Shown one piece after another: positions 717 to 64,000 of a stretch of 64,000 nt of DNA. The first letter of the stretch is position 1, and every line of letters begins with the position of its first letter. The stretch lies in the NCBI GenBank assembly GCA_029948255.1, contig JALIZF010000980.1:1-64000 (forward strand), given 5' to 3'. Origin of the DNA: Telmatactis stephensoni. Lineage: Eukaryota > Cnidaria > Anthozoa > Actiniaria > Isophelliidae. The position numbers and the translations under genes were made by a program. The notes below the pieces were generated by a model that saw only the letters and a list, made by a program, of their open reading frames with translations, ran no database searches and was not told the origin of the DNA.

Positions 717-3700
717 GTATGCTTGCATGTTATATGCTCAGGATCATGGAGGCTCCTGATATGCGCTGATGGAAAATGGGTAGCAATTTATATTGTTTGC
801 TTTTATTCCTTTTTTTGTGCTATTTTGCTTCGAGCATTTCAATTCTCACTTCATCATCACCAACATATTCCAACGTAGAGAAGTGCCAGTTTTATAGTCA
901 ATGCACAATACAAATGATGAGCAGCAACATATTCCAACGTAGAAAGTGCCAATTTTATAGTCAATGCACAATAGAGATGATGGAAAATTCTTTAAGTTTT
1001 GGCCTGGGAAGCCGGCTATGAATGGAAAGAATGTGTGTTTACAGAAATATTATAAGCAAAGAATTTATGTTAAATAACATTTACTCTACTCTAGGTCAAG
1101 TTCAATGCACAGCAAGAGCAGATATTGGTTTTGTCATGGACGCATCTACAAGTATAGGTCCATATGATTTCCAAAAGGAAAGAGATTTCGTCAAGGGTGT
1201 GGCTGGATCGTTTGTGTTTGCCCCTAATCAAGCTATTGCTGGTGTGATCACCTACAATTCGAACGCTTCACTTGATATACCTCTTGGACAGCACATGTCA
1301 GCAGAACACTTCAAGAATGCTATTGATAACATAAGATATACCAAGGGACAAACGAGGATAGACAAAGCTCTTAAACTTGCTCGTACTGATTTGTTTAGTA
1401 GAAGAGGAGGAAGCCGGCATGGTTTTCCTAAAGTCATGATTATTTTAACTGATGGAATACAAACTACAGATTACGATGCCATTCCCCTGGATGTCGCAGC
1501 GAAACCTCTGCATCGATTGGGAGTAAGGGTGTTTGCAGTTGGGGTTGGCGGACACACAAGCGTTAAAGAACTTGAATTGATGGTACAAAATAAAGATGAT
1601 GTCTTCCTGGCGAAAGACTTTGATGACCTTTTACAAAAGACTTACCAAATTGCACAAAGAACATGTCCAGCCGGTAAGGACCGTTTTCATTATTTGCGTA
1701 TATTAAACCTAATTAATTGCAGCAATAGGAAATTGTTATATCAATAAGACGCATTAGGATATTGTTAGATTACCACTGGCAAACAGCAGCCAGTTCATCT
1801 CATTTTAAAAACATAAAAATCGTTAACAACATGCTTTTATTTACCAATTAAGATATATATTATAAGAAAGGTAAATGTTACCTAGACTGATGAACTGAAA
1901 GCTCATCGGTGGACTAAGTGTCGCTCGAAAGAGAACTTTACACTACTTGACCGACACTAATGCATCTAACTTCATAATTTTGTAAAAAAATATTTGTACA
2001 TGCAAAATAGTTAACAAAATTAAAACAGTTTTTTTTAATTTCATTTTCCAATTTCAGTTCATGGTGGTTGGTCGTCGTGGGCCCGATGGGATAAATGCAC
2101 TCGAACATGTGGTGGAGGAACGCAATCTCGTTTAAGAGCTTGCAACAATCCAACTCCAGAAAATGGCGGCAGACCGTGTCCAGGATCAAGACGAGAGACT
2201 CGTTATTGTAATGAACAGTCCTGTAAAAGTGAGTAGCGCTAGTTTTGCTTTTCTTTTTCATTTGAAAAAAAAGTTCAATTAAATGATTGAGTCGGTTTTC
2301 AATGTTCTTTGCACGGCTTTAGATCCTATATTTCCCTGGTCAATACGAATTCAAGGGATTATATCCCTAGTACATTACGAATTCATACAATAATTCATGA
2401 TAATCATTTTTTTAGTTGATGGCAACTGGGGTAGGTGGGGACGTTGGGACAGATGTGATCAAACGTGTGGAGGAGGTAGACAACTACGCAAACGTGTCTG
2501 CGATAATCCCCCTCCTCGCTTTGGTGGACGCCCTTGTTTTGGACAAGACATCGAGTCCCGTCCCTGCAACGAGCAGCCTTGCCAAGGTTTGTAGTTCTAG
2601 CGGTGTTGTGCAAACTATGTCCTACAATTACATGCATGCAGTAATTCATAATTGTCGTTTCTTTTTAGTTGATGGCAACTGGGGTAGGTGGGGACGTTGG
2701 GACGAATGTGATCAAGAGTGTGGAGGAGGCAGACAACTACGCAAACGTGCATGCAATAATCCCCCTCCGCGTTTTGGTGGACGCCCTTGCTTTGGACAAG
2801 ACATCGATTCCCAATCCTGCAACGAGCAGCCTTGCCCAGGTTTGTGTGCGAAATTGAACTGTACATGTTCTTTCTCAGGAACTTGTTTTTAGATGACTAC
2901 TCTTATCTTGTAACAACACTGTTTTATTTCAAACATTTCACAGATACGACATATGTTCAAATTTCTGTGGCCTTTTAATTGAAAACTTATAGGCAAAAGG
3001 TTTAATAATTCTTTCCAACATGCAACAGAGTTTAGCGTTATTTGTTCGTTTCAAAAACTGGTGATGTATTGACTAACTCTCTGATTGTGGACTGCATGAC
3101 TAACGGAATGAATGACTGACTGGCCATCCGATTGGTCGATTGACTGACTTATCGACTGACTGACTGACTGACTGACTGACTGACTGACTGACTGACTGAC
3201 TGACTGACTGACTGACTGACTGACTGACTGACTGACTGACTGACTGACTGACTGACTGACTGACTGACTGACTGACTGACTGACTGACTGACTGACTGAC
3301 TGACTGACTGACTGACTGACTGACTGACTGACTGACTGACTGACTGACTGACTGACTGACTGACTGACTGACTGACTGACTGACTGACTGACTGACTGAC
3401 TGACTGACTGACTGACTGACTGACTGACTGACTGACTGACTGACTGACTGACTGACTGACTGACTGACTGACTGACTGACTGACTGACTGACTGACTGAC
3501 TGACTGACTGACTGACTGACTGACTGACTGACTGACTGACTGACTGACTGACTGACTGACTGACTGATGGATGACAGATAGATGACAGATTGAAAGATTG
3601 ACTTTTTTAGTTCAAGGTGCATGGTCTTCATGGGGTTCGTATAGCATCTGTATTCCCGAATGTGGTGGAGGTAAACAAACTCGTGAGCGAATATGCGATA

Positions 3701-51130: not shown

Positions 51131-53356
51131 TTGCTGGGAGCGAAGCGAGCAGCAACACTATTCTTGGTGTGGGATTCCTCTGCGATTTATGACGTCACCT
51201 TAATATTGATCCACGAACTCGATTTTTATGTACGGTGGTAGCATGTATACAATTTGTCTGCGCATGTCTGTGTTTTGGGCTTGAAATTCATTTGCATAGG
51301 CGAATGCAAGAAATTTTATGTTGACACGGAATATTTGGCTGGCTATCTCGTTCTTCAAAATTATGTTCAACTACCGAAATACTGAGACAACTAAAGCATG
51401 AGCAGTCTGCCTACCGCTAGTGCGCTGTGGATAATTATCCAGATCGAAGGCACTCCAGATGGGAAAATATCACGCGTCAAAGTCAGTAGAAAGTTGTGGG
51501 AAGGACCAGAACTCCGCACTTTCGAGTTATAATGCTGGCGTTGAATTCATGTATAAGGTAAATTTAGTAATGGATGTCATTACCAACATGATACTGTGTG
51601 AATTGGATCCAATAAGAGTACTCTGGACTTCATTGATTGTTGAATAATTAGCCATGTTTACTGGAATCTCGTACTTTTTCGCGCAAAATTCTTGCAATTC
51701 ATTCTGAAAAGTTTACATCTTTGACGGCGCCCCCCAGCAAAATTATTTAATAATACACTTTTTCCATGCTTCGTTCTTGTAAAACAGAGCTTTCTTGGAG
51801 GAAACTCCTGGTCCCTACATGTGATTTCAAGCAATGTTTACAGCCGGGTTCAAGCCTTGTTAAAATTGACATATTTCGGTATAGCCTATATTTTATAATC
51901 TGCAACATTTATCTAGAAGTTAATGACCTATTTTTATACGTGGTGAGGCATACAGTTTGTGCCGTATGAAGCAGCGTTTTATACTTCATGAAAGAGCAAT
52001 AAATTCATCGCTGAAATTTGCATGCAAACAACGTGCTTGGAAACACGTTCACAAAAATACTTTAGATCACATGTAGGGACCACGAGTTTGGACTAGAAAA
52101 GCTCAGTTTTGCAAGAAAGAAACGTGGAAAAAGCGAATTACTAAATAAATTTGCTGGGGAGCGCAGTCTAAGATGTCAAATTTTGAAAGTGAATTGCAAG
52201 AATTTTGAGCGAAAAAGTACGACATTCCAGTAAACATGGCTAATTATTCAAACGATCGATGGAGTCTAAAATACCCTTATCGGGTCTAATCTACACAGTA
52301 ACTTGTTGTTAATGGCTTCCACTGCTTATCGTACCTTACATATAAATTTAGCGCCCACAATATTACTCGAAAGTGCGGAGTTCTGGTCCTTCTCACAACT
52401 TTCTACTGACTTTGACGCGCGATATTTTCCCATCTGGAGTGCCTTCGATCTGGATAATTATCCACAGCGCACTAGCGGTAGGCAGACTGCACATGTTTTA
52501 GTTGTCTCAGTATTTCGGTAGTTGAACATAATTTTGAAGAACGAGATAGCCAGCCAAATATTCCGTGTCAACATAAAATTTCTTGCATTTGACATGCAAA
52601 TGAATTTCAAGCCCAAAACACAGACATGCGCAGACAAATTGTATACATGCTTACGGTGGTATGTTCATGGCGAACCTTGACGTCACAGGGATGAATTGGG
52701 ATTCCTGTGCGATTCCATTCGAGAGGTTTTATGTTTCTCGAAGTATAAATGAAGGTTACAAAATGCTAAGTGATATTTTTTCGAGAGGGCAATGTTCCGT
52801 TACGGGTCATTTTGCGTATTACTGTTCGAATCGAAGCTCGTCTACGGGCCGAATCAATTCAAGCCAAGATAATAAGTATGAAGTGAGGTCGCGCTGAGAA
52901 TCTCTGTAATATATTTGGTTACCCCATGAAAGAAAATTTTATACTTTGTATGTGATGGAATTGTATTTATCATTCGTTTAATCTAAAGTGTCAAATACAG
53001 TAGACAATGCGGTTTGACCGTGATGCAACGTACAACTAGCTTTTTAAAATCAGTTAGTTTTATAATCATTGCCAACGCTAGCCGTTTGTGATTGTTTGAA
53101 AAATTGCTTTTACTCAAAGTGCTAAATATTTTAAACAGTCATAGTGTGTGTCCGACACTGATCCTGGAGAATTATGTTTTGTAGTTCAACATTGAAGGTC
53201 AACTAGCAATGTTCGTCACACAACGCACAAGAGAAACATTTCATATATCAGAGAAAGCGGTGTACTTTCGTGAGTTTTAGGGGAACAGTTCTGCTAACGT
53301 GGATACACCAGCTGTTTTCTGCTCGCAGCACTTCACTTTCTATTAGAAATGGCTAG
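51131..53356. mobile_element. 2.2-kb element with an internal 1.5-kb fold-back
   Basis: It starts ttgctgggagcgaagcgag and ends ctattagaaatggctag. Inside, arms from about 51,190 and 52,690 are near-identical inverse complements, including 'ctgtggataattatccagat', meeting near 51,960. A deletion derivative with the same two termini lies inverted at 60,681-61,151. Both sit between an A and a T and end in CTAG, which fits a Helitron-like insertion, but the 5' end is not TC. No ORF of an autonomous element is visible. Confidence 0.7.
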
Positions 53357-54378
53357 TTCTTTAGCTTTTTACGTGCGTGCAAAACCTATGTTGAACGTGA
53401 CTGTTGAATGAAAGGCCAAATACTTCTGTCAATTAATTTTTCAAACTGGGGCTATAGGAGACGGGTGTTGCGTACTTTAATGTACATATATTTTTGGTAG
53501 TAACACGGCTAACATCAAATGGAAAATATATCAATATCTTTGCTTTTGACAAGCTCCAATTTTCGGATGATATATATGTCAATCATTCATTAAAATGTCA
53601 GGAAAGAGGGCAATTTTATATAGATCATGAATTACGACAACCCAGTGAAAGTTTCGTGCCTTAGGTATCGCGGTTGCCATACAATCTTTCTTTTCGTGAC
53701 TATGGCAAAGGATAAAGACCCTGAATTACGTTAATCAGTTTTACATATGCCAATTGCTAACACGTTAACCAGAACTTCACTTCAAACAACATTAACCGCC
53801 CATCCCGCGCATAAGTTTAAGATAATTTGCAATAAGAATTTGATTTGAAATTTGAATATTTCTTTGTAAGGTCAATAATTTTTCGAATTGGGCGGTATGA
53901 TTCTTACCCGCCAAGTATTTTTGTCATTTGAAATGATAACCGCTAGCTACTCCCTGGGAGGGCTAAAAAAGACTTGCAGCAAACTACAGTTCGTTATGTG
54001 ACCTGAACATGGATAATAATTGATCATGTAAACTCTAAGAATCATAGACAAGAATGTATTTTCAAGTAGACTCTCCCATCATCGGAGACCCAAGGCCCTG
54101 AAAGGCATGATATAAGTTCTAAATCAGGGGGTGGGGGTAAGAAATGGCGTTAAGAGAACAACTGACGCGGTTGCAGTTACAGGGACATCAATCTCCTTTC
54201 TCTCTACTTTTGAGCCTCACTTCTAGTCTAGTCACTTCTAGTATTCGTGCTTCAGCTCCCTCTTTCAAACCAACTTAAAAACTAAATTGATTAAGAAATT
54301 AATAAAAAGTGTTTATTATGAGTGCCTAATGTCTTCTAGCGCATAAGCACTAATTGGCCGGGACGCATGTTTGAAACG

Positions 54379-55300: not shown

Positions 55301-58300
55301 TTAGGAGGTGGCATCATGATGGCCATGCATATTGTACTTATAGTACTTATGGTAATAACCGCCACCGTCAGATCCTGGGTTAATTGCCCAGCCTTCTTTC
55401 AGGGCATGCCGGGCAGATATGATCGCACCCTGACACCATGCACGCTCCGGACCGAAAGCTTCGCCCACAAGGAAGATATCTTTGCCTGGTAGAGGTCTCT
55501 TGGCCCATTCGACGATCTCCTCGATGGTGAACTCAAAGCCCGACTTTTGGAAATGCCTAAGAGGTAAAAAGATATGCTTATAAAACCATAATGAACCAGG
55601 TCCTGGTTTTATGATTATTTCAAAAATGCTTGATTGATTTTAAAAACGCCCGAAATGAACGTCAAATTTGCAATTTGCAATTTTACAAAACATGATTAAA
55701 ATGAGGTGTCGAAATTCATCAAAATTCATCAATTTTTGAGGAAATACGCGAAATCCAAAATTAAGGTTTTGGTGTATGAGTTGGCTTTAGTAAAATAGAT
55801 ACAGGGCGTACTATTAAAACAGAAAGCAGTAAAGATATATCTAAAAAACGAGCCATACGGAGACATAAGCAATAGTTTTATGTTGCTTTTATAAATCTTT
55901 TCAAAGTTTTTGTTGCGAGCCTATCTCTGTCCTATCACGGTCACCAGCCAATCAGTGCGCGCTTTTCGATATTGGAGTCTAAAAACTAACCATGTTTGGT
56001 GTTCTCGATAAGAACGTGAATCTATAAGTTCCGCGAAGGAATTGCGGCACTCCAGAAATGGCATTTTCCCGCCTTATAATCGAAGACTAATTGGTGCGCT
56101 GTTGCGGCCAGCATAGTAATCACGTTGCTTAGTAACGGATATGTTACAACATTCTTAAAATCCGCGTCCTTCCGCGAAATTAAAGATCAAGGGTACTAGG
56201 ACAAACACTCGGGTTTTAAGCAAGCGTTAGCCGTTATTATAAGTCATTAGATTGTTACATCTGTTTTAATTTGCTGTATCAAGGCTTCAATTGCTAATTT
56301 CTTTCATCGATTAGCTGTGTATAAATACTGAAAACTCTGCTGTGACAAACGCTTAAATCGTACATAATGAACTACTGTATTCTAGCTACCGCGCGGCCTA
56401 TTACGTAAGCGTACGCGTTTAATAAGTTTAAAACCATTCAAATTCTCCTAAATATTTAGGGGACTTGGATTATCTAAATATATTAGGGGGTTTGGATTAG
56501 CTTATTGTCTAAATAGTTAGGGATTGAGTTAACTTATCAACTTATTAACCGACGCGTACCGCTTACGTAACGGGTCATGCGGTAGCTGAGGATGCAGTAG
56601 TTCGTTACTTACGATTAGCCGTTTGTCTCAGCAGATTTTGTAGCCAGAATACAACAAAACAGATAAGTTACAATTTATTGACTTATAATAACGAAGTCGA
56701 ACGGCTCAAAAACCACGTATATTTGTCTTAGTTTCCCTAAAAGATGAAACCGCAAATGACCGAATACAGATGGATCCCGGTCCGAATACCCCGTCCCCCA
56801 AAGTAAATCTTGTGTTATTCGTTCTTTAACTCACCATGCAGGATCCCAGTATTCGAAACGAGTATCAAGGGCCTTGGGAATTCTTGCTCCATACTTCGAC
56901 TCGAGAGCTCTATGGACCTCGTCTTCAATGTAGTGTTTGCCTAGGTCGTGAATGTCCTTCCATCTCCTTGCGCAGTGGCCGTCTGTGTAAATGCTGTGCA
57001 GAACGCTTTCTCCATTGGTGCCTTTGCCTCTAAAATATAAAAAGCAGAACATTTTGTTAGTTATTTTCTAACACCAGAAAATACAAAAAAGGACCAAAGA
57101 AGATCTGAACGATAAAATTATCAGATTCAAATTTATGATTTTAAACAATTTTGTTGCGATACAAGTTTGTATTCGCGTGGAAAACGCGCATCATTGCTTT
57201 TCAACTCGTCTCGCAGCAATGTTGCGAAACAAGTTCAGTGATTTTGTTGCTCGTATTACTGCAGTAGCTTTAATAGTGTCTGTACATGTCCGATCATAAA
57301 GAATAACGGACTAGTTCAATAGCATGAGCGACAGAAATTTTGACTCGGATGTTAACACGCACTTACTTGTAGAACAAGCTTGCCCCAAGACAATTATCAT
57401 GAGACACAAACTGTTGACGTTCTTTAATTTTAACGGAATTTTCACCGATTCGCACTTTCTTCCACCAGCGCTCACTGTATATCGCTGCACCTTTGAACGC
57501 TGGAATTGGTATAATGGAATTGAATTGGGGCATATCTTGAATCTTCTTGGCTATGCCTCCTTTGATCTTTCGGAATGGTCCAGGGGGTATAGCTACCACT
57601 ACCATGTCAACTTCGACTTTGAATTTGGATGTCTTAAGACTGTAGACGGGCCTTTTACGCTTTTTAGTTATGGACAATACTTCAGTATTGGTGTAAATTT
57701 TGCCGTCCATTTTCTTAACTTTTTGGGATAGCTGTTTGATAATTTTAGACATGCCTCCGTTCGGCCTGAAGTAATCTCTGGATGTTTTTAACTCCCCTTT
57801 AATGAAGTCAATGAACTGAGCCGGACTCACTAGTTCCTGGATTTCGCCTCTGTGGAAGGCTAAGTCATGAATAAAGTGAGCTCCCTCCGAAGTGGTTAAA
57901 TTGGAAGCATACGAGTAGAAAGTTGGGAACTTGTTAGCATTATCAGCATTTTCTTTGGCGATGAGATATTTGATCAATTCCGAGCTATTTTTATGTCCTA
58001 GATCGGAATGATTTTTAAGTTTAGGGTAGACTTCTTTAATTTTTTCTTCCTTTTTAGATGCCATCCCTCTAGACTTATATAAATCAGGCTTTGTAAGGGT
58101 CCAATCGTGGTAGTCAATGCCAAGTTCTTGCAACAGATTTCTAAATGAAAAAGAAATCTTAATGAGTTTTAATTACTTTGATAAATATCTAGTTGAGGTA
58201 TTGATTAAGCCGATTTGCTAGTATCATTTTTAGCGCATATTTTGTTTTCTTTGGATTTCGAAAGGAAATACTGGATAAATTACAACTTTTGGGAAAAGAC

Positions 58301-59028
58301 AGGGACGTCACAAGTTTTGGGAAGAGACAGAGACGTCTGGTTTCTAGTTTTTTTAAAGACGAAAAAACAGCTAACCAAACAAATCATAGTATCAATTTAA
58401 TTAGGCGCAAAAAAGCTAAATAGTTCAGTATTAATTGATATGGTTACATCATGATCTTTTGGTCTTTACTAATTCTCCAAGCTCCCATTCCTGAAAATAA
58501 CAAAATATATGTTAATACAAACTCAGCATTCATTCAAGTATGCTTCAGTTGAAAATCTGAAATCGTTCGTAGACATTCGAAAAAATGTTTGAAAAACCCG
58601 CGAAATAATTCTGTGAGCGCTATTAATACCTCATTCTCAGCAAGTTATATGCATTTCTCAAAGAGTTACGTTTCAGTTATATGCATGTGAGTAGAGCTTA
58701 GTGTGAATAATTCTATTTTCAAATAGACGTAGCAAGCGCCAGCAGATGACGGAAGAACCATCCACTATGTGAATACACTGCTCTTATTAGTTATTTATTA
58801 TTTATTGTTTAGTTATATATTCAATTATAAACGGTTATTATTTACCAACGGCGATGTTTGGAGCATTATCAAAATAGTGATCAAGAATCCTCCCTCCAAG
58901 TTTACGTTTTTTCTCAAAGACGCATATCTTGTCAGTTGCATATACTTTTGCAATCTCATAGGCCATGTAAAGGCCCGATATCCCTCCACCTATGATACCA
59001 ACATTGCAACGACGACGACGATATCCAC
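55301..59028 (-). CDS. L-amino-acid-oxidase-like flavoenzyme, five recognised 3' exons
   Basis: Exons in gene order are 58846-59028, 58448-58490, 57367-58140, 56835-57029 and 55301-55556, all GT-AG with matching phases, giving about 483 residues. Family members use FAD to oxidise an L-amino acid to the keto acid, releasing ammonia and hydrogen peroxide; many are secreted defence or venom proteins. The dinucleotide-binding motif is VGIIGGGISGLYMAYE, followed by KLGGRILDHYF and VGMGAWRIS, the usual FAD loop. PNGGMSKII and VVVAIPPGPF mark the central part, and IFLVGEAFGPERAWCQGAI the C-terminal FAD contact. The tail is rich in Gly, Tyr and His and ends at TAA 55,301-55,303. The signal peptide exon is not in the window, so secretion is only inferred. 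The upstream neighbours on this strand are the 27-nt exon copies at 60,028-63,856. A minus-strand AATAAA at 55,195-55,200 is a plausible polyadenylation signal. Confidence 0.92.
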
Positions 59029-59099
59029 CTGAGAAATGATAGTTAAAGTAAATATACTGAAACTACTTTGCATCTCTATTTTGGGGGTTTTAACCGAGG

Positions 59100-59200
59100 A
59101 ACAATTAAAGTATATATGACCAATTAAAGTATATATGATCAATTAAAGTATATAGGATTAAATTAAAGTATATAGGATCAATTAAAGTATATATCTATCA
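59100..59200. repeat. Tandem repeat of about 20 bp, five copies
   Basis: The unit caattaaagtatatatgac and variants follow one another. Confidence 0.85.
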
Positions 59201-59352
59201 TAAATGTAAATATTTAAAATTGTAAAAAATGTATTTTCTGTATATATTGTAAATGTATTTTAAATGTAAATGTATTTATCTTAAATGTAAATATATTTTC
59301 TGTATATATTGTAAACGTGTGTGTGAATAAAGTTCAGTTCAGTTCAGTTCAA
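59200..59352 (+). mobile_element. LINE-like 3' end with ttcag microsatellite
   Basis: A segment ending gaataaagttcagttcagttc, typical of CR1-type retroelement 3' ends. Confidence 0.45.
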
Positions 59353-59691
59353 AAGTAGAGGCCGATTTAATAGAATAAATAAGCCGGCCAGTAAGGTTTA
59401 TGTAGCAATACCAGTAGCTCTGTAGCTAGAACTACATAATAATGAACACTTTCATAATCTAAAATTTATGTTCAGTTGAAGGTCACCAATGTCCTTAAAA
59501 ACATTAAATTACCAATTTACCATCCGATCGCTCAAAAATGAAAAATGAAATTTTAGCATTTATATATAATGCGCTTAAAGTTTGTTACATGTAATTAGTA
59601 GTAAGATGGGGCCTACGGTTTAACGTCCTTATCCGAGGACCAGCCAGCCAGCCAGCCAGCCAGCCAATTTTTTTACTTTCATTGCAATGTA

Positions 59692-59980
59692 TATATAGCT
59701 ATTTGCACAAACATTGACCCTTTCAAAATCATCCGGCGAACCTAGAAGCTGAGACCGAAATGGCTCCTGGGTACACTAGTAATATCTGGATTTTCTTTCG
59801 TTCTATCTATGAATGTGCTGAATAAATGCATTTGGAATACCAAGAATTTGCTTCAGTCGTTTGAAACGTCCACGTCCACTCGCTTCTTTCAAATCATCTA
59901 ATCAACAGATTTCCCGATGTTCATTTCGGTCTCAGCTTCTATGTTTTGAAAGGGTCAATGTTTGTGCAATTAGCCATATA
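59692..59980. mobile_element. MITE, 289 bp
   Basis: Arms of about 60 bp: 'gcacaaacattgaccctttc' on the left and its complement near 59,955 on the right, continuing into 'agctgagaccgaaatg'. Confidence 0.88.
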
Positions 59981-60027
59981 ATGAAAGGTAGACACCGAGC
60001 TTTGAGAAGTAATCTAGAAGGATTTAC

Positions 60028-60054
60028 CATTGTGATGATCTATCAAATCGGGCC
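60028..60054 (-). CDS. Candidate 27-nt oxidase exon, copy A
   Basis: On the minus strand a pyrimidine-rich tttctttcc...caag acceptor is followed by 27 nt and a gtaaatcc donor. Read in phase 1 it adds a Gly-completing codon and PDLIDHHN, and its end phase matches the oxidase exon at 58846-59028. Expression is not shown. Confidence 0.5.
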
Positions 60055-60290
60055 CTTGAAATGGAAAGAAAAAATGCATGTAAGTGTAAAAGGGAAACAT
60101 ATACAAATTCACCAGAATATGCATAACTAAAGAGAAATAAATATATAAATGAAAAATAACGGCAATAAATAAACAAAATCAATCAATAAATACCCTTCAT
60201 TGCAAAAACGTATGCGTCGTCATAAAAAATAAACTTTAAAAATTAAAAAAAATATCAAATAGGATTGAAATGCAATCTAGAAGGATTTAC

Positions 60291-60310
60291 CATTGTGATG
60301 ATCTATCAAA
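60291..60310 (-). pseudogene. Broken copy B of the 27-nt exon
   Basis: The donor half is intact, but a small deletion has removed the acceptor AG and the first codons, so this copy should not splice. Confidence 0.6.
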
Positions 60311-60386
60311 TAGAAAGATAAGTGTAAAAGAAAAATATATACATATTCACCATTCTATTGAAATGATCACTAAAGACAAATAAATG

Positions 60387-60443
<57 letters not shown>

Positions 60444-60505
60444 TTGAAAAATTGAAATTTGAAAAAATAACAAATAGGAATGAGATGTAATCTAGAAGGA
60501 TTTAC

Positions 60506-60532
60506 CATTGTGATGATCTATCAAATCGGGCC
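60506..60532 (-). CDS. Candidate 27-nt oxidase exon, copy C
   Basis: Same sequence as copy A (PDLIDHHN), with both splice sites intact. Confidence 0.5.
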
Positions 60533-60680
60533 CTTGAAATAGATAGAAAAATCAAATATAAATAAGTGTAAAAGAAAAATATATACATATTCACCATTCT
60601 ATTGAAATGATAACTAAAGACAAATGAATGAATGAATGAATAAATAAAAAGATAAATAAATAAATAATTAAATAAATAAA

Positions 60681-61151
60681 CTAGCTATTTCTAATAGAAA
60701 GTGAAGTGCTGCGAGCAGAGCTGTTCCCTTAAAACTTACGAAAGTACACCGCTTTGTCTGATATATCAAATGTTTCTTGTCTATCTCCTGTGCTATGCGT
60801 TGTGTGACGAACACTGCTAGTTCATGGCTAGTTGACCTTCAATATTGAACTACAAGGATCAGTGTCGGACACACACAGTTCAAAATATTTAGCACTTTGA
60901 GTAAAGCAATTTTTCAAACAATCTCAAACGGCTGATTATAAAACTAACTGATTTTAAAAAGCTAGTTTATTTAGGGAAAAATGTGAATCGCTGATCGTAT
61001 GTATCGCGTGTTCGTCTAGTGACATCCTTGAATCGACTCTCGATACGGTATGGACTTGAACCGCTGATCGTATGTATCGCATGTTCGTCTAGTGACATCC
61101 ACAGATTACACTGTGTTCCGAATAGGAGGCTACTCGCTTCGCTCGCAGCAA
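60681..61151 (-). mobile_element. 471-bp deletion derivative of the 51,131 element
   Basis: Read on the minus strand it starts ttgctgcgagcgaagcgag and ends ctattagaaatagctag, the same termini as 51,131-53,356; about 300 bp next to the 3' end also match. It interrupts the exon array between copies C and D. Confidence 0.8.
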
Positions 61152-61223
61152 TAATTGAAAAATTGAAATTTGAAAAAATAACAAATACTAAATAGGAATG
61201 AGATGTAATCTAGAAGGATTTAC

Positions 61224-61250
61224 CATTGTGATGATCTATCCAATCGGGTC
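61224..61250 (-). CDS. Candidate 27-nt oxidase exon, copy D
   Basis: Variant copy: GA CCC start and a TGG codon, giving PDWIDHHN. Acceptor caaag and donor gtaaat are intact. Confidence 0.5.
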
Positions 61251-61547
61251 CTTTGAAATTGAAAGAAAAAAACAAATATAAGCTAAGGGTAAAAGAAGAA
61301 TATATACACATTCACCATTCTATTGAAATGATAATTAGAGACATGAATAGAAAAATAAATAAATAAATGAAAAAATATATAAGTAATCAATCAATCAACC
61401 AATCTATCTATCTATCTATATATGAATAGATTATAAATTAATGAATAAATAGATACACTTAATTGCAAAAATGTTGTCAGAGAAAAATAAAATTGAAAAA
61501 TTGAAAAAATCTCTAATAGGAATAAAATGTATTCTAGAAGGATTTAC

Positions 61548-61574
61548 CATTGTGATGATCTATCAAATCGGGTC
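61548..61574 (-). CDS. Candidate 27-nt oxidase exon, copy E
   Basis: GA CCC start as in copy D, but with the TTG codon (PDLIDHHN). Splice sites are intact. Confidence 0.5.
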
Positions 61575-61841
61575 CTTTGAAATTGAAAGAAAAAATCAAA
61601 TATAAGCTAAGTGTAAAAGAAGAATATAAACATATTCACCATTCTATTGAAATGATAACTAAAGACATGAAAAGAAAAATAAATAAATAAATTAAAATAA
61701 TAAATAAACAAGTAATAGATAGATAAAATAAATAAATAAATTAATTAATTAATTAATTAATTAATTAATTAATTAATAATTGAAAAATTGAAATTTGAAA
61801 AAATAACAAATAGGAATGAGATGTAATCTAGAAGGATTTAC

Positions 61842-61868
61842 CATTGTGATGATCTATCAAATCGGGCC
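61842..61868 (-). CDS. Candidate 27-nt oxidase exon, copy F
   Basis: Same as copies A and C (PDLIDHHN); splice sites intact. The transposon at 61,931-63,660 is inserted just upstream of it on this strand. Confidence 0.5.
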
Positions 61869-61930
61869 CTTGAAATAGAAAGAAAAATCAAATATAAATA
61901 AGTGTAAAAGAAAAATATATACATATTCAC

Positions 61931-63660
61931 GGTCCGTGTAGCACTTGCTAATTGAATTTTCTATTTTAAAATCTAAAAACAAAATTCAAAATTTATCATG
62001 ATTTATGAATTTTGATTATTTGAAACTCAATTAAAAATTAAAAATTACTTATTTTTGTGTTTCTTAATATTGTTAATAAAGTTCAAAAACTTTAATAGAC
62101 CAGATGAATCCGCATTTCGTTGATTCGGATAGCAGACATAAAAACGATCATGAGCTGTTTGAATATTAATAGTTTGAAACTAAATTGAATTTCAAAAAAA
62201 CTCCCTTGTTTGTTTTCTTTATTATCAAGGGAAGGGATTTCCCTTCTGGGGTGGGGGGACAGGAGATTTTGTCAAAATTTAGTCAGCTGAACGAGCTGAA
62301 ATTCACACCAATCAGTATTCAAATTAAATATCAGAATACACTGATGTCCTGAAATAATGTCGTAATAACCTGAAACCACAATACCGTAATAGAAACAAGA
62401 TTTTGCTGCTCAGAAGCAGAAGACACAGTTTATATTCTCAGAAAAGGCGACCACTTTGACGGTTTGGTCAAATAAAGGAGGAGCTGTGCCATCCAACGTT
62501 AGTAGACAAGACAGACGTTCTGGGTGCGAGTAGCAATGATAATGATGATGAAGATGATGATGATGACGCAAATGCTGTCCTCGACAGTGACGAAGATAAA
62601 GCCAATGACTATTCTTGTCGCGAGTAGTGATGACGAAGATGATGATGTTCAAAAAGATGATGTCGAGTGTGAAGAAGACAATGATCACGTTGTAGTCGTG
62701 ATCAGAGATGATGATGATGAAGATGATGATGATCATCATCAAAGAGATGTCGCAGGTGCTGACGACTTTGAAGACAGTGACGTTCTGGTGGAGTCTAGTG
62801 CTGCTGCTGATGATGATGTCGATGCAAAAGACGACGTCAAAAATAGTAAGATCCATTTTTATAGAAACGAACCTAATCTGCCAATTTTTAAGTCTGGGAA
62901 ACACAACCTTACATTTGCTGAATTCTTTACTCATCTTGTAGATAATCCTGACATAAATCTAATCGCTAAGGAAATTCCCAGTCGTGTCGAAAACGACGTC
63001 TCTTATACTTTATCAGTCAATCAAGGTGATGTTCCACTTTCCGGATGTCACTTGCGATCAATATATCCTTATTAGGACATTATTTGACATTGTATTCTGA
63101 TATTTTGAATACTGATTGGTGTGAATTTCAGCTCGTTCGCCCTAAATAAGGTATATCCTGAAAACTTACAAGCACTTATAGGAGAGATCGAAGGTAATTT
63201 TTGCTACTATATTGATTTTTAAAAAGGTATCCGTGTTATCCGTGGTATCCGCGAAGTCGAAATGCCGCGAAAATCACTGTTGGCCGAGCTGGTGCCTAAG
63301 TACGCTGACTAACTTTTGACAAAATCTCCTGTCCCCCCACCCCAGAAGGGAAATCCCTTCCTTTGATAATAAAGAAAACAAATAAGGGAGTTTTTTTGAA
63401 ATTCAATTTAGTTTCAAACTATTAATATTCAAACAGCTCATGATCGTTTTTATGTCTGCTATCCGAATCAACGAAATGCGGATTCATCTGGTCTTTTAAA
63501 GTTTTTGAACTTCATTAACGATATTAAGAAACACAAAAATAAGTAATTTTTAATTTTTAATTGAGTTTCAAATAATCAAAATTCATAAATCATGATAAAT
63601 TTTGAATTTTGTTTTTAGATTTTAAAATAGAAAATTCAATTAGCAAGTGCTACACGGACC
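61931..63660. mobile_element. DNA transposon with long inverted repeats, 1.73 kb
   Basis: The termini 'ggtccgtgtagcacttgcta' and their exact complement are flanked by attcac on both sides (61,925-61,930 and 63,661-63,666), a 6-bp target duplication. The inverted arms run to about 62,368 and 63,060; the right arm has about 150 bp extra (about 63,150-63,310). The centre carries one ORF. The superfamily is not recognised. Confidence 0.88.
62524..63075 (+). CDS. Acidic ORF inside the transposon, function unknown
   Basis: An open frame of 183 codons. Residues about 30-105 are dominated by Asp and Glu with some His, written largely by gatgat-type repeats; residues about 108-183 are of normal composition (NLPIFKSGKHNLTFAEFF). 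The stop lies at the inner end of the right inverted repeat. It may be the remnant or N-terminal fragment of a transposase, but no catalytic motif is visible. The first 25 residues are Met-rich and may not be used. Confidence 0.4.
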   Translation: MRVAMIMMMKMMMMTQMLSSTVTKIKPMTILVASSDDEDDDVQKDDVECEEDNDHVVVVIRDDDDEDDDDHHQRDVAGADDFEDSDVLVESSAAADDDVDAKDDVKNSKIHFYRNEPNLPIFKSGKHNLTFAEFFTHLVDNPDINLIAKEIPSRVENDVSYTLSVNQGDVPLSGCHLRSIYPY

Positions 63661-63829
63661 ATTCACCATTCTATTGAAATGATAACTAAAGACAAATAAA
63701 TGAATGAATGAATAAATAAAAAGATAAATAAATAAATAAATAATTAAATAAATAAATAAATAATTGAAAATTTGAAATTTGAAAAAATAAATACTAAATA
63801 GGAATGAGATGTAATCTAGAAGGATTTAC

Positions 63830-63856
63830 CATTGTGATGATCTATCCAATCGGGTC
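63830..63856 (-). CDS. Candidate 27-nt oxidase exon, copy G
   Basis: Identical to copy D (PDWIDHHN) with intact splice sites. The repeat unit continues to the edge of the window, so more copies may follow. Confidence 0.5.
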
Positions 63857-64000
63857 CTTTGAAATTGAAAGAAAAAAGCAAATATAAGCTAAGGGTAAAA
63901 GAAGAATATATACACATTCACCATTCTATTGAAATGATAACTAAAGACATGAAAAGAAAAATAAATAAATTAATTAAAATAATAAATAAACAAGTAATAG

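Follow-up and report, generated by a model that had tools for sequence, protein, structure and literature searches.

An array of exon-like segments precedes an oxidase gene

The window, by which we mean the whole 64,000-nt stretch analysed here (positions 1 to 64,000, forward strand, of contig JALIZF010000980.1 of the sea anemone Telmatactis stephensoni, assembly GCA_029948255.1), carries on its minus strand a tandem array of a 27-nt exon-like segment followed by a gene for an amino-acid-oxidase-like flavoenzyme. We refer to the contig that holds the window as C970 (the window being C970:1-64000) and to a second contig of the same 484-Mb assembly as C23.

The oxidase gene, downstream of the array, has five exons with GT-AG internal junctions and a stop codon at 55301. 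The first catalytic exon (58846-59028) runs from phase 1 to phase 1 and aligns with residues 88-142 of P0001, the product of Nematostella vectensis LOC116602233. It encodes the flavin adenine dinucleotide (FAD)-binding Rossmann motif at the N-terminus of the catalytic part (GIIGGGISGLYMAYEI; NAD_binding_8, 36.8 bits against a cut-off of 21.9, 4.8e-09). The gene model continues with exons at 58448-58490, 57367-58140 (Amino_oxidase, PF01593, 34.6 bits against a cut-off of 19.8, 1.7e-08), 56835-57029 and 55301-55556, the last of which encodes a His/Tyr-rich C-terminus and the stop codon. Matches of the enzyme in the PDB include solved L-amino-acid oxidases, and the product is probably a secreted L-amino-acid-oxidase-like flavoenzyme.

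Upstream of these exons, a pattern search of the window recovers seven minus-strand copies of the 27-nt segment, with 5′ ends at 63856, 61868, 61574, 61250, 60532, 60317 and 60054. Six of them are intact, each with a pyrimidine-tract AG acceptor, a length of exactly 27 nt and a gtaaat donor. The preliminary description of this DNA had claimed as much, and it had also correctly given the phase of the segments as 1-1 and their translation as glycine followed by PDLIDHHN or PDWIDHHN. The tryptophan form occurs at 61224-61250 and 63830-63856 (copies D and G when lettered from the oxidase end), and the unit of the latter is identical to a unit at C970:67596. The leucine form occurs in the remaining four intact copies, at 61842-61868, 61548-61574, 60506-60532 and 60028-60054, the last of which has a strongly diverged flank. 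No further copy was found in the window when both strands were searched with up to 9 mismatches of 33.

The seventh copy (60291-60317), which the preliminary description did not place among the six that keep their sites, has lost its acceptor and its first 10 nt. The deletion moves the pyrimidine tract beside an internal AG, which might create a symmetric 12-nt exon (60291-60302, encoding DHHN); this internal acceptor scores 3.1, near two acceptors of the oxidase gene (3.26).

The array and its counterpart on a second contig differ in copy number

While the preliminary description was right about the seven copies in the window, the array itself continues beyond the window to C970:77385. An exact pattern search of the assembly gives 31 places, of which 19 lie on C970, where they continue beyond the window, and the other 12 on C23; the reversed-pattern control gives none. 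With a degenerate pattern (at most 3 mismatches), 34 of 34 places genome-wide fall within the C970 and C23 arrays, again with no hit for the reversed control. Of the 38 known copies this pattern fails to detect 4, two of them damaged and two of the type at 77065, and more diverged copies elsewhere could escape it. Within that limited reach no place was found outside the two arrays, and we dropped the idea of a dispersed repeat family. Self-comparison gives pieces of 69-97% identity, and the duplication covers the whole unit including the intron, not the exon alone. Judged from this layout, the repeat is not a chance product, since the whole unit with its intron is duplicated and the genome-wide pattern is confined to the array and its C23 counterpart.

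Counting diverged and damaged copies, C970 has 22 (77385 to 60054) and C23 has 16 (245078 to 255298). More diverged copies were not found below an nhmmer E of 3 on C970:1-93000 or C23:236001-266000. The units are spaced 215-424 bp apart wherever no large insertion separates them. The two contigs are collinear, and their 16,786 aligned bases outside the array show 99.0% identity (gaps ignored, only blast pieces above 300 bp used, among them one of 1.7 kb at 91.8%); we therefore take C23 to be probably the other haplotype of the C970 locus.

The difference in copy number corresponds to an extra block of six units on C970: the stretch 68855-64889 is 98.07% identical to 65125-61150 over 3,997 bp. 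The proposal that the segment spreads by tandem duplication thus holds in the form of block duplication, and copy number differs, at 22 against 16, between two haplotype-like contigs of one assembly. Such a difference could also be an assembly artefact, either a false expansion or the collapse of a near-identical block, and blocks that are long and 98% alike would lend themselves to it. Against this, 26 mismatches and 17 gap openings separate the two C970 blocks along their 4.0 kb, and the flanks of the two contigs differ by about 1%, as alleles may. Moreover, the C970 array holds a foldback insertion three times (window 61931-63660, C970:67400-65670 and C970:70918-69133), whose first 40 nt are absent from the C23 stretch retrieved and for which the C23 spacings of 223-730 bp are too short. 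We consider an artefact very unlikely.

The most diverged units lie at both ends of the array (C970:60054-77385, C23:245078-255298), and its middle is homogenised. Unequal exchange homogenises the middle of an array and leaves the most diverged units at its ends. For example, the copies at 77385 and 71739 read GPDIIARHI and the copy at 77065 reads GHDLIDNDN; these diverged copies are present on both contigs.

Reading frame and candidate first exon

The search for a first exon covered the stretch between the array and 93000 and gave six hydrophobic phase-1 candidates, only one of which is identical on C23. This 52-nt exon (C970:79938-79887; C23:242484) encodes the signal-peptide-like sequence MKVLVFWLGLSLLVSAS, a character judged by weak homology and by eye rather than with a signal-peptide program. 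It ends in phase 1 with a G as its last base and has a gtatgc donor. It also matches a signal-peptide-like exon of a head-to-head paralog at C970:99290 (76% over 33 nt, E 0.092). Within the stretch searched, up to 93000, we regard it as probably the first exon with the signal peptide. In the paralog, two signal-peptide-like 49-nt phase-1 exons lie 116 bp apart (MRELIIKVLSLFIDVSG and MRGLITLGLLLLIGVSG, at C970:99174 and C970:99290, positions 574 and 690 of locus L039), perhaps a duplicated first exon.

With this exon in place, its final G makes every intact 27-nt copy start with glycine, in frame (GPDLIDHHN). The end phase of the segments fits the oxidase exon at 58846-59028, as had been claimed, in the phases and in the five-exon model alike. 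The further claim that any number of copies keeps the frame is likewise upheld: the C970 model has no internal stop either without mini-exons (500 residues) or with all 21 intact ones (689 residues), and the C23 model has none with all 15 intact copies (635 residues). At most, the mini-exons would make up 567 of 2067 coding nt (27%). The position proposed for the array, beside the mature start of the enzyme, gains support from the probable signal-peptide exon ending in G, which would anchor the 5′ side.

Two ideas on the nature of the segment were abandoned. The mini-exon is not considered part of a CBM14 domain, the repeat being without a Pfam match. The idea that the array links a CBM14 module to the oxidase, expected from the CBM14 of Nematostella, was dropped after a null tblastn: three CBM14 stretches, compared with the gene strand of C970:55001-93000 and C23:236001-266000, had no hit up to an E of 10.

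Splice sites, length and sequence variation of the copies

We next asked whether the segments behave as exons. Using general splice-site weights, not trained on the present genome, an equally good stop-free phase-1-1 exon of 12-60 nt is expected 0.003-0.004 times per 290 bp of second-order Markov sequence. In about 123 kb of real sequence such exons occur 7 times (about 0.017 per 290 bp), and true exons may be among them. Looser splice cut-offs raise these values to 0.018-0.025 in Markov sequence and to 26 occurrences (about 0.06 per 290 bp) in the real sequence. An exon-like segment arising by chance is accordingly unlikely, though possible.

The splice sites persist across the copies. AG, length and GT are kept in 21 of the 22 copies on C970 and 15 of the 16 on C23. 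This includes the diverged end copies (77385, 77065 and 71739), which keep AG, 27 nt, GT and an open frame even though 5-7 of their 27 exon positions differ from the type at 61868. When 11 distinct units, chosen from 14 distinct core sequences, are aligned, pairs of invariant dinucleotides spaced 27 nt apart without gaps occur at only 3 of 185 offsets, and these are the AG...GT splice-site offset and its two neighbours, with the caveat that the edges of the alignment are less homologous, which favours its centre. These are weak signs that the splice sites and the length are under constraint.

The nine residues themselves give a different result. Across all lineages (36 copies, the damaged pair excluded, which reduce to 14 distinct core sequences), 13 of 27 exon columns are variable compared to 37 of 73 flank columns (p = 1.0), and the earlier picture of an exon conserved against a drifting intron is not borne out. 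Nonsynonymous and synonymous changes, counted by hand, stand at 11:3 against 62:15 possible (p = 0.74), a neutral-looking ratio. Purifying selection on the nine residues is thus not supported. For the six intact copies of the window the exon is marginally less variable at most (2 of 27 columns compared to 18 of 71, p = 0.054; p = 0.22 without the last copy), and the most conserved stretch straddles the donor, not the exon. For indels inside and outside the 27 nt, a check proposed with the preliminary description, the counts are 0 of 27 exon columns compared to 7 of 73 in the flanks (p = 0.18).

These results bear on the possibility that the array is an intronic tandem repeat only, a satellite-like local duplication with an exon-like segment that is never, or only accidentally, spliced. 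In favour of such a repeat, the duplication takes in the whole unit and its flank, the exon shows no excess conservation, its amino-acid changes look neutral, microsatellites and insertions destabilise the intron, and the enzyme reads through in the absence of any copy. On the other hand, chance alone would put an exon-like segment of matching strand and phase into only about 0.003-0.06 of 290-bp stretches, a value that varies with the background and cut-off chosen, and the splice dinucleotides and length persist in diverged copies. On this evidence a purely intronic repeat seems somewhat unlikely.

The variability of the exon, the neutral-looking changes, the conserved donor region and the intact enzyme frame in the absence of any segment all count against a use of the copies as exons, and four further observations weigh in the same direction. 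First, the damaged copy, with its acceptor lost, occurs on both contigs (C23 counterpart at 255035). Second, one C23 copy (251151) has a weaker donor, gtacat. Third, the match of the candidate first exon to the paralog is weak, with a score of 26 for the exon when 1 of 60 Markov sequences attains 27. Finally, in the parts of paralog upstream regions that were searched (L035-L039 and L016, not whole introns) no credible unit was found, the best nhmmer E being 3.8.

A putative repeat tail of variable length

With moderate confidence we favour an explanation in which the copies serve as micro-exons, are included at least in part and form a repeat tail at the mature N-terminus, the length of which varies mainly through the number of exons per allele. 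Symmetric phase-1-1 micro-exons would be placed in the intron between the signal-peptide exon and the first catalytic exon. An ancestral mini-exon, together with its flanking intron, would have been multiplied by unequal exchange of blocks of units, leading to 22 copies on one haplotype and 16 on the other. Every included copy would lengthen the mature enzyme at its start by nine residues (GPDLIDHHN or a variant of it), and together the copies would form a repeat tail rich in His and Asp, its length depending mainly on how many exons the allele carries. The sequence itself shows the array, its phases, the oxidase frame and the block by which the contigs differ, while we infer inclusion of the mini-exons in mRNA, secretion of the enzyme and a function of the tail. 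The tail is probably a spacer or a surface-binding segment, in which length and frame would matter more than the letters.

Any subset of the intact copies could be skipped, because these are symmetric and stop-free, and symmetric phase does not demand mutually exclusive splicing. The array might therefore be kept for length-diversifying alternative splicing, with subsets of copies chosen per transcript, tissue or individual. The intact copies are indeed in phase and have similar splice sites, and even the copy at 60317 could contribute 12 nt through its internal AG. Schistosome micro-exon genes offer an example of such use of short symmetric exons (PMC4350168). Nevertheless, haplotypes of the chicken BG1 gene each make one predominant transcript, with a length that depends on the allele and is ascribed to unequal crossing-over and not to splicing (PMC5043582), and we consider such a splicing system unlikely here. 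A combination of the two, in which a block-variable array and the inclusion of variable numbers of copies act together as an N-terminal length dial, is also rather unlikely. Individuals and tissues would then produce enzymes of graded length, with anywhere from 0 to 21 nine-residue repeats and four more residues should the 12-nt copy be used.

Should the segments indeed be spliced as micro-exons, as we favour, the locus would represent an independent lineage, far from birds, that builds a protein segment from a copy-number-variable micro-exon array. It would then allow tests of how faithfully strings of near-identical 27-nt exons are spliced and of whether exon-number polymorphism tunes a secreted enzyme. 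One animal already provides 16 and 22 copies for comparison, and its two alleles may encode enzymes with N-termini of different length. Gene predictors are likely to overlook such mini-exons.

Comparison with known repeat-exon genes

According to the preliminary description no system of this kind had been described, which is too strong. The closest described case is chicken BG1, in which 21-nt repeat exons encode seven-residue repeats and the number of exons ranges from 13 to 21 by allele, with a change via a four-exon block (PMC5043582). Both systems consist of an array of very short repeat exons, putative ones in the present case, with an exon number that depends on the allele and a change that involves a multi-exon block. 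The present array consists, as in BG1, of tandem short segments with splice sites and symmetric phase, each encoding one peptide repeat, and its exon number differs via a six-copy block, provided that the contigs are correctly assembled haplotypes. In BG1, however, the repeats form the presumed coiled-coil tail of a membrane protein and transcripts are in hand (PMC5043582), whereas the putative exons described here, seen in genomic sequence, are 27 nt long, vary by a six-copy block and would each add nine residues to the mature start of a cnidarian flavoenzyme that is probably secreted.

Schistosome micro-exon genes (MEGs) have around 80% of their coding region in exons of 6-36 bp (PMC4350168), and some MEG-26 genes repeat a pattern of exon lengths (PMC4350168, PMC5825161). 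Their short symmetric exons resemble the putative ones of the present gene, and their products, which vary by splicing, are secreted or membrane-anchored proteins with a signal peptide (PMC4350168, PMC5825161); here the hydrophobic first exon is the candidate for such a peptide. In contrast to MEGs, mini-exons here would account for no more than the minority of coding nucleotides given above, precede a conventional enzyme and are near-identical in most copies.

Intragenic repeat units with exons and introns, in a copy number set by the allele, are also known from the human LPA gene, where kringle IV type 2 (KIV-2) is present in 1 to more than 40 copies and the allele determines isoform length (PMC6314250). 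The KIV-2 unit contains two exons of 160 and 182 bp in 5.6 kb (PMC6314250), compared to a single 27-nt exon per unit here. In sea anemones, toxin genes are built of 3-5 microexons (PMC10210398). No case closer than BG1 appears in the portions available of PMC9013439, PMC10210398 and PMC2812944, and we found no such array in cnidarians or in secreted enzymes in the open-licence literature searched.

The oxidase family and other features of the locus

Among the matches listed, the closest named relative of the enzyme is the Nematostella protein P0001 (47% identity over 92% of the query), and an Actinostola relative shows 49% identity over 79%. P0001 has a homologous enzyme part and differs by a CBM14 chitin-binding domain near its N-terminus; a PDLIDHHN-like repeat was not seen in its sequence. 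No close relative with the repeat was found in the protein database, where the best of at least 40 and at least 24 matches have 47-49% identity and six sequences were inspected. The named cnidarian relatives among the matches listed are from Nematostella and Actinostola only, though the database includes stony-coral proteins.

Within the assembly, related oxidase genes form a large family, with at least 82 exon-level matches on C23, C970, C74, C137, C290, C161, C1102, C72, C1089, C68 and C545. As judged by eye, the catalytic exon also starts in phase 1 at four paralogous loci (L016, L017, L020 and L024), and CBM14-type exons of two paralogs (on C1102 and C74) are symmetric 1-1 and stand in front of the catalytic part. 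Because of these shared phases, the intron before the catalytic part looks like a slot for symmetric modules in the oxidase family, a slot that the array would occupy here.

The copies of the window are interrupted by two insertions. The larger (61931-63660, 1.73 kb, found by self-comparison) lies in the intron between two copies and resembles a foldback transposon, with 357-bp terminal inverted repeats (98.3% identical) and GTGAAT on both sides. A comparison of this element with a plasmid collection gave no match and is uninformative. The second, with approximate edges at 60679-61150, lies between the copies at 61250 and 60532, and part of it resembles window 53034-53358 on the opposite strand. 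No known structured RNA family reaches the gathering threshold in window 58000-64000. Elsewhere in the window, a long simple-repeat tract at 3103-3606 is open in all three minus-strand frames (SVSQ repeats). The neighbouring SLC23-like transporter points to a hexacoral-like anthozoan, with its nearest relatives in Nematostella and stony corals, at 56-61% identity among the best ten matches listed from at most 8000 candidates.

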